Below the pieces are notes generated by a model, which ran no database searches, was not told the origin of the DNA, and was given only the letters and a program-made list of their open reading frames with translations. Below are positions 27,300 through 32,028 of a stretch of 64,000 bases of DNA, piece after piece (positions within the stretch are counted from its first letter, which is position 1; every line of letters begins with the position of its first letter). The position numbers and the translations under genes were made by a program. Origin of the DNA: Acidimicrobiales bacterium (lineage in GTDB: Bacteria; Actinomycetota; Acidimicrobiia; Acidimicrobiales; Aldehydirespiratoraceae); assembly GCA_022425325.1 (NCBI GenBank), contig JAKMFW010000083.1, forward strand, positions 1-64,000, written 5' to 3'.

Positions 27300-28366
27300 G
27301 TGAGGACCTCCGTGAGAGCTTCGAGGAATCGGTCGTCTTCGTCGGGCGTGCCGATCGTGACGCGCAGACAGCCCTGAAGGCGGGGCCAACTGGCGCAGTT
27401 ACGCACGAGTACGGATCGGTCGACAAGACCCTGCCACACGTCGTCACCGGAGAGGTGCTGGGGTCGGAGGAGAACAAAATTCGAACCTGACGGCCACACG
27501 TCGACCGGCAGGTCGGCGAGACCGGCCAGCAGCCGCTCGCGCTCGTCGACCAGACGGGCGACCCGATCGTTCATGGCGTCGAGATGGTCGAGTGCGACCT
27601 CGCCGGCGATCTGGGTCATGGCGTCGAGGTGATACGGCAGGACGACCTTCTCGAGTTCGTCGATGACCCACGACGGGGCGAGGAGATAGCCGAGACGAAC
27701 GGCTGCCATCGCCCAGGTCTTGGAGTAGGTGCGACTGACGACGAGCGGGGTGTCGTCGCCGAGCAGCGTGACGGCAGAGAAGTCGGCGAACTGCCCGTAG
27801 GCCTCGTCGACGCAGAGCAGGCCGCCGTTCGCCGCCGTGAGTTCGAGCACCCGCCGGATCGATGCTTCCGGATCGACGACGCCGGTCGGGTTGTTGGGTG
27901 AGCAGAGAAACACCACGTCCGGTCGGTCTTCGACGATGACTCGCTCCACTTCGTCGAGATCGAGCGAGAAGTCGTCGTTGCGTTCGCCTTCGATCACTGC
28001 AGTACCGGTGATGCGGCTGAGATGACTGTGCAGCGCATAGGTCGGTTCGAAGACGGCGGCGCTGCGACCCGGACCGGCGAAGGTCAACAGCAGGGTCTGC
28101 AAGACCTCGTTGGAACCGTTGGCGGCGAAGACCTGCGAAGCGGAAAGGCCGTAGTTCGCGCCGATGCGCGAGCGGAGTTCGGATGCGCTGCGCTGCGGAT
28201 AGCGGTGCCAGGCGATCTCCGCGACACGCGCGGCGACGGCATCGGCGAAGCCTTCCGGTGGCGGCTCAGGACTTTCGTTGGTGTTGAGCCGGACATCGAC
28301 GTCGATCTGGGGCGAGTGGTAGCCCGCCATCAGCGCAACGGACTCTCGGGCCGTGGGCCGACTCAT
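27296..28366 (-). CDS. hisC: Histidinol-phosphate aminotransferase
   Basis: A 356-residue fold-type I PLP enzyme. Visible motifs are LNTNESPEPPP at the N-terminus, ANGSNEVLQ, SPNNPTG, VDEAYGQF, the PLP Lys in SRTYSKTWAMAAVRLGY, and a C-terminal Arg in GCLRVTIGT. It makes histidinol phosphate from imidazole acetol phosphate. Overlaps hisD and hisB by 4 nt each. Confidence 0.96.
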   Translation of the reverse strand: MSRPTARESVALMAGYHSPQIDVDVRLNTNESPEPPPEGFADAVAARVAEIAWHRYPQRSASELRSRIGANYGLSASQVFAANGSNEVLQTLLLTFAGPGRSAAVFEPTYALHSHLSRITGTAVIEGERNDDFSLDLDEVERVIVEDRPDVVFLCSPNNPTGVVDPEASIRRVLELTAANGGLLCVDEAYGQFADFSAVTLLGDDTPLVVSRTYSKTWAMAAVRLGYLLAPSWVIDELEKVVLPYHLDAMTQIAGEVALDHLDAMNDRVARLVDERERLLAGLADLPVDVWPSGSNFVLLRPQHLSGDDVWQGLVDRSVLVRNCASWPRLQGCLRVTIGTPDEDDRFLEALTEVLT

Positions 28367-29652
28367 CGTTCGGCTCCTCGACGCAGGCGGATCGAGGCGG
28401 CGTGAGCGTCGAGACCCTCAGCGCCGGCGAGTGCCTCGACGGCGTCGCCCATGGCCTCGAGACCCGCTTGTTCCACGAAGACGATGTGCACGTCCTTCAT
28501 GAAGTCGTGCACGGTCAGGGCACTCGCAAAGCGGGCGGTGCCGTTGGTGGGCAGCACATGGCTGGGCCCGGCGACATAGTCGCCAAGCGAGGCCGGCGCG
28601 TAGCGGCCACAGAACACCGCACCGGCGTTGCGCACCATGGCGACGAGTGCCTCATTGTCGGCTGTCTGGATCTCGAGATGCTCGGGCGCGATGAAATTAG
28701 AGACGGCCATGGCCTGCTCCGGCGAGTCGGTGACGACCACCATGCCGCTCGTGCTGAGGGTCGATTCGATCTCGGCACGACGCAGGGCGTCGGCGACGAG
28801 CCGCTCGATCGATGCCGTGACCTCGTCGGCGAATGCGTCGTTCCAGGTGATGAACCAGGCGAGGCCGTCGGGGCCGTGCTCGGCCTGCAAAATCACATCG
28901 ACGGCCGCGAAATCGGCCGGATCGGTGCCGTCGGCGACGACAACCACCTCGGATGGTCCGGCAAAGGACGACGGGACGCCGACCGTGCCTGCGACCTCCT
29001 GTTTGGCGAGCGCGACGTAGATGTTGCCTGGACCGACGATGACGTCGACGGGCCGAATCGACTCGGTGCCATGCGCGACTGCGCCGATCGCCTGCGCACC
29101 GCCGACCGACACGACCTCGTGAGCGCCTGCGATCTTCGCCGCAGCAAGCACGATGTCGGGGACCTTGCCGTCAGGGCCGGGAGGGACACACACGACGATC
29201 TGTTCAACGCCCGCCACCCGCGCCGGTACTGCGGTCATGAGCACGGTCGAGGGATAGACGGCCCGACCCCCGGGGACGTAGCAGGCGGCCCGCTCCACGG
29301 CGCGGTGCATGCCACGAATCGACACACCGGGCTGCTCCACCCGGACATCGGCCGGCATCTGGGCCTCGTGGTAGGCCGCGATCCGATCGGCGGCGAGTTC
29401 GAGGGCGGCTCGTACGTCGGGTTCGATGCGCTCCATGGCAGCCGCGAGTTCGGCATCAGCGACCACGAGGGAGTCGAGTTCGACACCGTCGAAGCGACTC
29501 GTGTACTCACGAACGGCGGCGTCGCCCCGCTCGGCCACCGTGGCGAGAATGTCCCGCACGACGTCGACGGGCCCGCCGGACGGCGTCTCGGGCCGCGGCA
29601 GGACGTCGCTCAGGTCACCGGTGAAACCTCGCAGGTCGATGCGTCGAAGCAC
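28363..29652 (-). CDS. hisD: Histidinol dehydrogenase
   Basis: A 429-residue zinc enzyme. Key segments: PGGRAVYPSTVLM, GGAQAIGAVAHGT, DVIVGPGNIYVALAK, GPSEVVVVAD, DVILQAEHGPDG, NFIAPEHLEI and GPSHVLPTNGTARF, the last containing catalytic and zinc-binding His. Normal length. It oxidises histidinol to histidine in two NAD-dependent steps. The GTG at 29652 follows a TAGCGT -10 box by 6 nt, making the hisDCBHAF mRNA leaderless. Confidence 0.97.
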   Translation of the reverse strand: MLRRIDLRGFTGDLSDVLPRPETPSGGPVDVVRDILATVAERGDAAVREYTSRFDGVELDSLVVADAELAAAMERIEPDVRAALELAADRIAAYHEAQMPADVRVEQPGVSIRGMHRAVERAACYVPGGRAVYPSTVLMTAVPARVAGVEQIVVCVPPGPDGKVPDIVLAAAKIAGAHEVVSVGGAQAIGAVAHGTESIRPVDVIVGPGNIYVALAKQEVAGTVGVPSSFAGPSEVVVVADGTDPADFAAVDVILQAEHGPDGLAWFITWNDAFADEVTASIERLVADALRRAEIESTLSTSGMVVVTDSPEQAMAVSNFIAPEHLEIQTADNEALVAMVRNAGAVFCGRYAPASLGDYVAGPSHVLPTNGTARFASALTVHDFMKDVHIVFVEQAGLEAMGDAVEALAGAEGLDAHAASIRLRRGAER

Positions 29653-29658
29653 CCGATC

Positions 29659-29664
29659 ACGCTA
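29659..29664 (-). promoter_or_regulatory. Leaderless promoter of the hisDCBHAF operon
   Basis: TAGCGT on the minus strand, 6 nt before the hisD GTG. Transcription from here starts at the first codon, leaving no leader for classic his attenuation. Confidence 0.55.
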
Positions 29665-29711
29665 TCGCCCGGGCTGTGCGGCCCCTGCGGGTTTCCCGGC
29701 ATGATGCACCC

Positions 29712-29903
29712 ATGGATTCCGACGCCGCCGAACTCTCCTCGATCACCACCGTGGTCTCCGACCTTGCCCTGCGGGTCGCCGGGGTCGCCGAGCGCCGCCA
29801 ACACGATCCTGATGATCCGATCGTTGCCCGCCTTCACGAGATCGAGCGCAGCCTGGTCACAGCGCAGCGACGCCTCCGCGACGTCGCCCGAGCACTCGAC
29901 TGA
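29712..29903 (+). CDS. Small acidic/helical hypothetical protein
   Basis: A 63-residue open frame from the ATG at 29712. The protein is predicted helical (SSITTVVSDLALRVAGVAER... IERSLVTAQRRLRDVARALD) with heptad-like spacing, so it may form a coiled coil. GC-rich third positions and a CATGAT box 6 nt before the ATG support it being real; short length and no recognised family argue caution. It sits between divergent hisD and the candidate small RNA, on the opposite strand to both. Confidence 0.5.
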   Translation: MDSDAAELSSITTVVSDLALRVAGVAERRQHDPDDPIVARLHEIERSLVTAQRRLRDVARALD

Positions 29904-29950
29904 GGCGGGCAAGTTCACGCCGCCGGGCCTCGGTCCGCGACGCCCTCGCC

Positions 29951-30051
29951 GAAAAGGAAAGCGGCCACCCCCGAAGAGGTGGCCGCCAGGCGACACAGGG
30001 CGGCGGATCCCTCGTGTCGCAGTGGGATCGAGCGGCGGGTGCTCGATCCGG
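29951..30051 (-). ncRNA. Candidate ~100-nt structured small RNA with intrinsic terminator
   Basis: On the minus strand, a TTCGCG -35-like box (30081-30086) is 17 bp from a TACAGT -10 box (30058-30063). Just downstream come three hairpins: GGATCGAGC/GCTCGATCC, 9 bp with loop ACCCGCC (30025-30049); GCGACAC/GTGTCGC plus GGG/CCC across a small bulge (29990-30020); and GCGGCCACC/GGTGGCCGC, 9 bp (29961-29986), followed by TTTCCTTTTC. No protein is encoded on this strand. The first two loops are C-rich, as in actinobacterial 6C-type sRNAs, but lack six consecutive C. The his operon has its own leaderless promoter, so this is more likely a separate RNA than a his leader. Confidence 0.55.
29961..29986 (-). 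terminator. Intrinsic terminator of the candidate sRNA
   Basis: A 9-bp perfect GC-rich stem with an 8-nt loop followed on the minus strand by TTTCCTTTTC (29960-29951). On the plus strand no T-run follows, so its direction is minus. Confidence 0.65.
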
Positions 30052-30057
30052 GTGGCG

Positions 30058-30086
30058 ACTGTAACAGAGCCGATTGCCTTCGCGAA
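30058..30086 (-). promoter_or_regulatory. Promoter of the candidate sRNA
   Basis: TTCGCG (-35-like) and TACAGT (-10) on the minus strand with an exact 17-bp spacer. The expected start, about 30051, falls at the foot of the first 9-bp hairpin. Confidence 0.5.
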
Positions 30087-30127
30087 CCGTCGCGGGCGAC
30101 GTTTCGCCGGCTCGATCGGACCGCAGT

Positions 30128-30140
30128 CGACGTCACGTCG
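30128..30140. promoter_or_regulatory. 13-bp palindrome between divergent sRNA and mshD promoters
   Basis: CGACGT-C-ACGTCG is a perfect inverted repeat, 42 bp from the sRNA -35-like box and 55 bp from the mshD -10 box. It could be an operator for either gene. No factor can be named. Confidence 0.35.
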
Positions 30141-30195
30141 GCAACGATGTTCCCGGTACCGAGCCGAGGGTCCAGAGCCTCCGCTGATCGCTCGC

Positions 30196-30201
30196 TAGCC
30201 T
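30196..30201 (+). promoter_or_regulatory. Leaderless -10 box of mshD-rlmN
   Basis: TAGCCT, 6 nt before the GTG at 30208. An ATG two nt earlier is followed at once by TGA and cannot be the start. Confidence 0.5.
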
Positions 30202-30207
30202 GACCAT

Positions 30208-30912
30208 GTGACCATCACCGTCGACGGGCCGCTTCCGGGCCCTTTCCGTTGGAGCATCGTCGTCTCGGAGCATCGAGATGGCTTTGCCCTCGACGACGCA
30301 CTCACGCACGCCCTGCGCGAGATCGACGATCACGAGAATGCCAATGGCCGGATCCAACTCTGGATCCGGCACGTCGACGACGAGGCCGACACGATCGCTG
30401 CAGCCCTCGGTTTTCGCCGATACCGAGACCTCTGGCAGCTGCGCTGTGCCTTGCCCAACCGCGACAGCGGTCTCGTCACCCGGGCGTTCACACCTGATGA
30501 TCTCGACGATTTCATCGCCGTCAACAACCGGGCGTTCCACTGGCACCCCGAGCAGGGTGGGCTCACCCGAGCGGCAGTCGAGGCCACCATGCAAGAACCG
30601 TGGTTCGACCCCGATGGGTTCCGCCTGCTGCACGAAGGCGACGAGCTCGTCGGATTCTGCTGGACCAAGGTCCATCGCGACACCGACCCCAATCTCGGTG
30701 AGATCTACGTCATCGCCATCGACCCGAGCCGTCACGGCAAGGGGCTGGGCAAACCGATGACGCTCGCCGGACTTGCCTGGCTCGCCGACCACGGCCTCGA
30801 GCACGGAATGCTGTACGTCGAGTCCGACAACGACCCGGCCAACGCGACCTACGCGACAATTGGGTTCTCGCGCCATCACACGGACCGGGCCTATGAACTG
30901 GAGCGCGCATGA
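30208..30912 (+). CDS. mshD: Mycothiol synthase-like GNAT acetyltransferase
   Basis: A 234-residue protein whose second half carries the MshD pattern: VNNRAFHWHPEQGG, EPWFDPDGF, LVGFCWTKVH, GEIYVIAIDPSRHGKGLG (acetyl-CoA loop) and MLYVESDNDPANATY. MshD acetylates cysteinyl-glucosaminyl-inositol to finish mycothiol, the main actinobacterial thiol (EC 2.3.1.189). Canonical MshD has two GNAT domains and about 300 residues; here the N-terminal domain is reduced to about 80 residues. The GTG at 30208 fits a TAGCCT box 6 nt upstream. Overlaps rlmN by 4 nt. Confidence 0.82.
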   Translation: MTITVDGPLPGPFRWSIVVSEHRDGFALDDALTHALREIDDHENANGRIQLWIRHVDDEADTIAAALGFRRYRDLWQLRCALPNRDSGLVTRAFTPDDLDDFIAVNNRAFHWHPEQGGLTRAAVEATMQEPWFDPDGFRLLHEGDELVGFCWTKVHRDTDPNLGEIYVIAIDPSRHGKGLGKPMTLAGLAWLADHGLEHGMLYVESDNDPANATYATIGFSRHHTDRAYELERA

Positions 30913-31982
30913 CCTCACTCGACGTCATCGGCCGTTCCCACCGCGAGGCGCCGGTGCTGCGGTACGACCCGAATCGGGACGAGCTCGCCGCCCTGCTCGA
31001 CGGCGAGCCCCGGTACCGGGTCGACCAGGTGTGGGCCGGCATCCACGAGCGGGGCGAGGAGATCGACGACCTCACCAACCTCCCCAAGGCGCTCCGGGCC
31101 CGCCTTACCGACGAACTCCCGCTCGCACTCACCCCCGAGGTCGAGTCAATCAGCGACGACGGCGCCACGGTCAAGTGGCTGTGGCGACTCCACGACGGAC
31201 ACAAGATCGAGACCGTGCTGATGCACTACGACGACCGCACGACCGTCTGCGTGTCGTCCCAGGCCGGCTGCGCGATGGCGTGCGGCTTCTGCGCCACCGG
31301 CCAGTCCGGCTTCGATCGCCACCTGTCCGTCGGCGAGATCGTCGAACAGATCGTCCGTGCCCGACGCCAATCGGCGCCTCGTCGCGTCTCGAACATCGTC
31401 TTCATGGGGATGGGCGAACCATTCGCCAACTACGACCGCACATGGGCTGCGGTCGAACGCATCAACAAGGACCTCGGTATCGGCGCTCGACACATCACGA
31501 TCTCGACCGTCGGTGTCGTTCCCGGGATCGAGCGACTCGCCGAGGAGGACCTTCCCGTCAACCTGGCCGTGTCGCTTCACGTCGCCAACGACCGGGATCG
31601 AGACGAACTCGTCCCCCTGAACAAGCGCTATCCCCTCGACCGTCTTCACGAAGCCTGCCGGCGCTACCTCGACGCCAAGAACCGGCGTCTCTCCTTCGAG
31701 TGGGCCCTGATCGACGGTGTCAACGACCGAGACTCCGATGTCGACGAACTCGCCGACTACGCCCGGTCACTGCGCGCCCACATCAACCTGATCCCCCTCA
31801 ACCCCACCCCGGGCTATCTCACCCGCGGGACCCCACTCGACCGGGTCTACGCCTTCCGCGATGCCCTCAACGACCGGGGCGCGAACGCCACCGTGCGACG
31901 CACGCGCGGTACCGAGATCGACGCTGCCTGCGGCCAGCTGCGAGCCAGCCGTCAGCTCGTCGATCCACCGAAAAGACGCTGA
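30909..31982 (+). CDS. rlmN: Dual-specificity RNA methyltransferase RlmN
   Basis: A 357-residue radical-SAM enzyme. The cluster motif CAMACGFC has Cys121, Cys125 and Cys128. GMGEPFANY, TISTVGVVPGI and LAVSLHVAND are typical of RlmN, which methylates C2 of A2503 in 23S rRNA and A37 in some tRNAs. The expected late Cys is seen in AACGQL near the C-terminus. ATG overlaps the mshD stop (ATGA), so it is co-transcribed with that gene. Confidence 0.96.
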   Translation: MTSLDVIGRSHREAPVLRYDPNRDELAALLDGEPRYRVDQVWAGIHERGEEIDDLTNLPKALRARLTDELPLALTPEVESISDDGATVKWLWRLHDGHKIETVLMHYDDRTTVCVSSQAGCAMACGFCATGQSGFDRHLSVGEIVEQIVRARRQSAPRRVSNIVFMGMGEPFANYDRTWAAVERINKDLGIGARHITISTVGVVPGIERLAEEDLPVNLAVSLHVANDRDRDELVPLNKRYPLDRLHEACRRYLDAKNRRLSFEWALIDGVNDRDSDVDELADYARSLRAHINLIPLNPTPGYLTRGTPLDRVYAFRDALNDRGANATVRRTRGTEIDAACGQLRASRQLVDPPKRR

Positions 31983-32028
31983 CCCGCCGGTGTGCGACTC
32001 GCCGCCCGCGAGCGCCCATACTGGAGCC

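Follow-up and report, generated by a model that had tools for sequence, protein, structure and literature searches.

The region studied here lies on contig JAKMFW010000083.1 of an Acidimicrobiales bacterium (assembly GCA_022425325.1), of which positions 1 to 64,000 were analysed; we refer to this whole 64,000-nt stretch as the window. Within it, hisD and the divergent mshD, the latter followed by rlmN, enclose an intergenic region that is predicted to hold the gene of a small RNA, here called the twin-loop RNA. The features of the locus are the following:

28363 to 29652, minus strand: hisD (TIGR00069), on the same strand as the RNA and downstream of it
29712 to 29903, plus strand: open reading frame of 63 aa between the RNA and hisD, followed in relatives by tblastn
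29951 to 29959, minus strand: U-rich tail UUCCUUUUC, read from the sequence
29952 to 30052, minus strand: twin-loop small RNA, a predicted transcript of ~100 nt
29960 to 29987, minus strand: terminator hairpin, 12 bp as folded and found by the terminator scan
29990 to 30020, minus strand: hairpin 2, from fold, loop conservation and covariation
30025 to 30049, minus strand: hairpin 1, from fold and covariation
30058 to 30063, minus strand: −10 hexamer TACAGT, at the position of TANNNT across members
30081 to 30086, minus strand: putative −35 TTCGCG, read from the sequence and weak on its own
30208 to 30912, plus strand: mshD (mycothiol synthase), from TIGR03448 above cut-off and synteny; divergent neighbour of the RNA

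The 63-aa open reading frame (29712–29903) had no match in Pfam or NCBIfam, and it is kept in nearly all f1 relatives and in many other members of the order.

Hairpin 1 consists of 9 bp and carries the loop ACCCGCC (30040–30034), and hairpin 2 consists of 7 bp, a one-base bulge and 4 bp, with the loop AUCCGCCG at 30008–30001. Folded as RNA, positions 30055–29951 reach −59.8 kcal/mol, compared with an average of −37.8 kcal/mol (sd 3.5) for 200 dinucleotide shuffles, none of which was as low (z −6.3). The start of the RNA was placed by inference 6–7 nt past the −10 hexamer, and a covariance model of the family (R2) matched the window at 29951–30052 with 90.8 bits. A terminator scan of positions 28000–32000 found three terminators, including that of the RNA itself, against 1.3 expected. 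An earlier note on this DNA had proposed a minus-strand structured small RNA of about 100 nt with a promoter, two hairpins and a terminator, and this proposal is borne out by the sequence, by the fold and by relatives; that it encodes no protein agrees with the lack of a closed open reading frame in 65 of 79 members. Two details of the proposal stood in part. The terminator hairpin and its U-rich tail are present, but the hairpin folds with 12 bp instead of the 9 bp described. The −35 and −10 sequences and the spacer of 17 nt between TTCGCG and TACAGT are as described, but a sigma-70 consensus scan did not return this pair at the RNA, so that in the window sequence alone the promoter is weak evidence, and its support comes from its fixed place across relatives.

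Compensatory change and distribution in Acidimicrobiales

When the whole intergenic region was compared with 41 relatives by blastn, the conserved block of ~95 nt was exactly the predicted RNA; the block is kept within the same bacterial family, and its flanks were unaligned except in the two closest genomes. Seventeen sequences of this block formed alignment A2, and its RNAalifold consensus reproduces the three hairpins seen in the RNA of the window. In A2, an unfitted MAFFT alignment, 97.2% of the cells are paired and 12 of the 32 pairs have changed on both sides, and none of 500 shuffles reached either value. A larger alignment made with MAFFT only (A4, 54 sequences) has both-side changes at 22 of 28 pairs. 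In the alignment of 83 covariance-model matches (82 distinct), which is fitted to R2 and therefore biased towards the model, pairing holds in 94.7% of the cells, compared with 40–51% when the same alignment was slid, and both-side changes occur at 27 of the 28 pairs. Compensatory changes, G-U pairs included, occur in all three stems: all 10 modelled pairs of the terminator stem have both-side changes, and in an order-level example of hairpin 1, ACCAGGUUCCCGCCACCUGGU, the stem differs and the CCCGCC loop is the same. Compensatory changes, which the earlier note had named as possible support, were thus found in relatives keeping the flanking genes, in the A2, A4 and R2 alignments, and the covariance model that it had suggested building from homologous regions supported the structure and recovered members throughout the order.

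A first covariance model, R1, found the RNA in 26 of 51 genomes of the family to which the window belongs and then in other families of the order, and had no credible match in other orders of the class. R2 extended this to 93 of 158 genomes of the order in ~38 family-level groups, a count that is a lower bound because few candidates were scored per genome; it found none in ~186 genomes outside Acidimicrobiales. In a pattern scan of named genomes, the members found were likewise nearly all from Acidimicrobiales MAGs, and by eye the matches outside the order look like chance. Judged from these genome comparisons, the RNA gene is conserved across the order Acidimicrobiales. The family now has more than 100 members and is easily recognised by the model together with synteny.

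The most constant part of the RNA is in its loops. CCGCC is found in the hairpin 2 loop of all 82 distinct members recovered by the covariance model and in the hairpin 1 loop of 72 of them, counts that are not fully independent, as a model trained on the motif is more apt to find members that bear it; R2 did recover members without CCGCC in hairpin 1, and never any without it in hairpin 2. Since loop 2 varies beyond CCGCC (GGGUCCCGCCACCC, GGGCUCCCGCCGCCC, GGGAACCGCCGCCC and GGGUUCCGCCGCCC), what the two loops share in nearly all members is exactly YCCGCC, with ACCGCC in a few. Conserved loops on freely changing stems imply that the RNA works through its loops, for which the stems serve only as supports, and the presence of the same CCGCC motif in two hairpin tips suggests a shared binding partner.

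Promoter, terminator and gene neighbourhood

A TANNNT hexamer precedes hairpin 1 by 2–12 nt in 67 of 78 named members, compared with 9 of 1257 control windows further upstream, and a run of at least four T stands at the 3′ end in 62 of 82 members; in one clade the terminator hairpin is present and the U-tract is absent. The twin-loop RNA is thus, as far as sequence comparison can tell, a stand-alone, non-coding RNA gene with its own promoter, its own intrinsic terminator and a conserved structure, and we regard it as almost certain that a structured small RNA gene is real. A clade-specific box, (A)TCACCCAC or ATCCACCA, was seen ~35 nt upstream of the RNA, near the −35 position (L140, L160, L185, L197 and others), and another clade has TGACTGG in place of that box and no TANNNT; these might be sites of a regulator or a sigma factor. 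As a separate observation, TANNNT occurs within ~20 nt of the start codon in ~20% of 435 predicted genes, compared with 0.3% in an in-gene control, in a survey of the G000 stretches and the window, pointing to many leaderless mRNAs, those of mshD and hisD apparently included.

The surroundings of the RNA are conserved as well. In 65 of 79 members the RNA is followed on its own strand by the his operon, and in 62 of 79 mshD/rlmN lies upstream and divergent; most of the members without these neighbours are cut by the end of the locus. The distance from the RNA to hisD ranges from 116 to 1191 nt (median 390), often with an opposite-strand gene between, and in 58 of 78 cases the start of hisD is closely preceded by a −10-like TANNNT of its own. 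Second copies of the RNA away from his genes were found in three genomes (L309–L311) of one family-level group (f136). In seven sampled genomes of the family of the window that lack the RNA and keep hisD, R2 found nothing near hisD; an eighth RNA-less genome, G004, stops at a contig edge. By eye, several RNA-less family members (L329–L333) have an endonuclease III-like gene directly upstream of hisD, and it appears from this that loss of the RNA accompanies rearrangement. Two further loci, L172 (CAMAYJ010000022.1, titled Bifidobacterium breve) and L214 (JAGWNV010000026.1, titled Acidobacteriota), have the Acidimicrobiales his/sRNA/mshD arrangement, and these are probably mislabelled or contaminated MAGs.

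Candidate partners and alternative readings

The comparative analysis thus establishes a structured RNA in a stand-alone gene, with conserved loops and a conserved place; expression of the RNA, action of its loops by base pairing and mRNAs as its targets are what we infer. We suggest that the RNA would be transcribed from its own promoter and end at its own terminator, and that its two hairpins, otherwise unrelated in appearance, would each display YCCGCC in the loop. Its most likely mode of action would then be in trans, as a riboregulator with two seeds, where either loop could pair with GGCGGR sites, be they in another RNA or in a limited group of mRNAs. It would work in the manner of αr14/NfeR1 and of 6C, whose C-rich loops bind mRNAs, but with a seed of its own. 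Taken as a whole, this statement, that is, a stand-alone small RNA with twin YCCGCC loops acting in trans by pairing, seems to us slightly favoured over its being wrong in some part.

The earlier note had likened the loops to those of 6C-type RNAs, which pair with G-rich translation starts; as a general mechanism for the twin-loop RNA, such pairing is not supported. GGCGG occurs upstream of the starts of 24 of 435 G000 genes (5.5%), which is at background (5.7% in-gene), whereas GGAGG reaches 9.7% upstream of the starts of the same 435 genes against 1.8% in-gene; without enrichment of GGCGG upstream of starts, general anti-Shine-Dalgarno pairing was rejected. Nor are complementary sites co-conserved: between G000 and G035, GGCGGR was kept at starts in 3 of 151 orthologue pairs, with 2.5 expected, in a comparison that drew on parts of each genome and thus had low power. 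Two individual candidates were also discarded, namely hisH as a cis-linked target, whose upstream GGCGGGU in the window recurs in the closest relatives only, and a sigma-factor gene, whose upstream CGGCGGA is present in three near-identical genomes only. The three attempts together (hisH, the sigma-factor gene and the 151 orthologues) found no conserved target, with limited power, and particular pairing targets are possible.

Another mechanism by which the loops could act is binding of a protein, in which case the YCCGCC loops would be held by an RNA-binding protein and the RNA would sequester it, or bring copies of it together, as decoy or scaffold. CsrA held by RsmY/RsmZ is the model for this idea, which would involve another protein and another motif here. 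In its favour, both hairpins present the same short loop, at a fixed size, although their stems vary, and complementary sites at gene starts are neither enriched nor conserved; the conservation of the loops would be accounted for just as well by a protein. However, no candidate protein has been identified, and 10 of the 82 members have no motif in hairpin 1, so that two sites are not obligatory. CsrA itself was rejected as the partner, since the GGA that CsrA-type binding involves is lost from loop 2 of diverged members. On balance, we consider a protein decoy a serious possibility that is nonetheless less likely than not, and base pairing with a limited group of RNAs appears somewhat more likely as the way in which the loops act in trans. 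We further speculate, tentatively and with rather more doubt than trust, that a single universal partner, either a protein that binds RNA or a structured RNA of high abundance, is bound by the twin loops of this order-wide RNA, and not the translation starts of mRNAs. If so, the RNA would be a decoy or effector with twin loops, of a type that is new and peculiar to Acidimicrobiales. The order is widespread and mostly uncultured, and a loop motif that stays nearly constant amid so much change makes the partner and the function directly testable in the small number of its members that are in culture.

The position of the RNA ahead of the his operon, on the same strand, raises the idea of a cis-acting his leader or attenuator, in which the terminator would be read through into hisD under some condition. 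This is unlikely: because hisD has its own TANNNT, because of the 116–1191 nt that separate it from the RNA, often with the opposite-strand gene between, and because second copies lie elsewhere, the RNA is probably not a his leader. In addition, no leader peptide was seen, and the terminator stems vary freely, with no conserved antiterminator pairing seen among them.

Membership in the 6C family, as a true but diverged member, has in its favour that both RNAs occur in Actinomycetota, are ~100 nt long and have two C-rich loops (for the C-rich loops of 6C, PMC4046766; PMC9569102). However, model searches in both directions gave no credible match. Rfam 15 at the gathering score had no match in the window, 6C included; the 6C model (RF01066) had none in positions 29700–30300 at E ≤ 5, none in 22 relative loci at E ≤ 1 and none in 119 genomes of the class, compared with 6 of 101 genomes in the phylum, and R2 had no credible match on 6C loci (best E 0.29). 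The builds differ as well. In 6C, two loops have C-runs of roughly six or longer, and in the 6C loci examined (L090–L095) these are the loops of the second hairpin and of the terminator, whereas the loops of the twin-loop RNA are ACCCGCC and the hairpin 2 loop given above, without six-C runs, and both are separate from the terminator, whose loop is unrelated; the gene neighbours also differ. We therefore reject 6C membership as very improbable, and the view of the earlier note that the RNA may be a distinct family is upheld by the 6C search that it had suggested. Least credible of all is a DNA element or chance structure, given the RNA-type compensatory changes, G-U included, in all three stems and a promoter and terminator in register. 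A phage origin of the RNA was also considered, and no match was found.

Comparison with other small RNAs

RsmY and RsmZ, which are decoys of CsrA, are like the twin-loop RNA in that a short motif recurs in their loops while the stems vary. Their motif is GGA, whereas the motif of the twin-loop RNA is not GGA and has no link to CsrA.

A closer likeness in form is found in αr14/NfeR1 of alpha-proteobacteria (the "cuckoo" RNAs), which are also stand-alone small RNAs, Hfq-independent in the case of NfeR1, and also have an identical C-rich loop on differing stems. The hairpins of αr14 carry an identical ultraconserved loop motif on divergent stems, and these loops are anti-Shine-Dalgarno seeds that silence ntrB (PMC10746234). 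The differences are that their motif, CCUCCUCCC, is a true anti-Shine-Dalgarno sequence where the twin-loop RNA has YCCGCC, that they have three loops instead of two loops plus a terminator, and that the bacteria are unrelated.

The literature searched, which did not cover a 2017 survey of 224 candidate RNAs, contained no earlier description of the twin-loop RNA and no described small RNA for Acidimicrobiales. We conclude that the twin-loop RNA is new to Rfam, and that it resembles the small RNAs with C-rich loops in kind and differs from them in motif and build.
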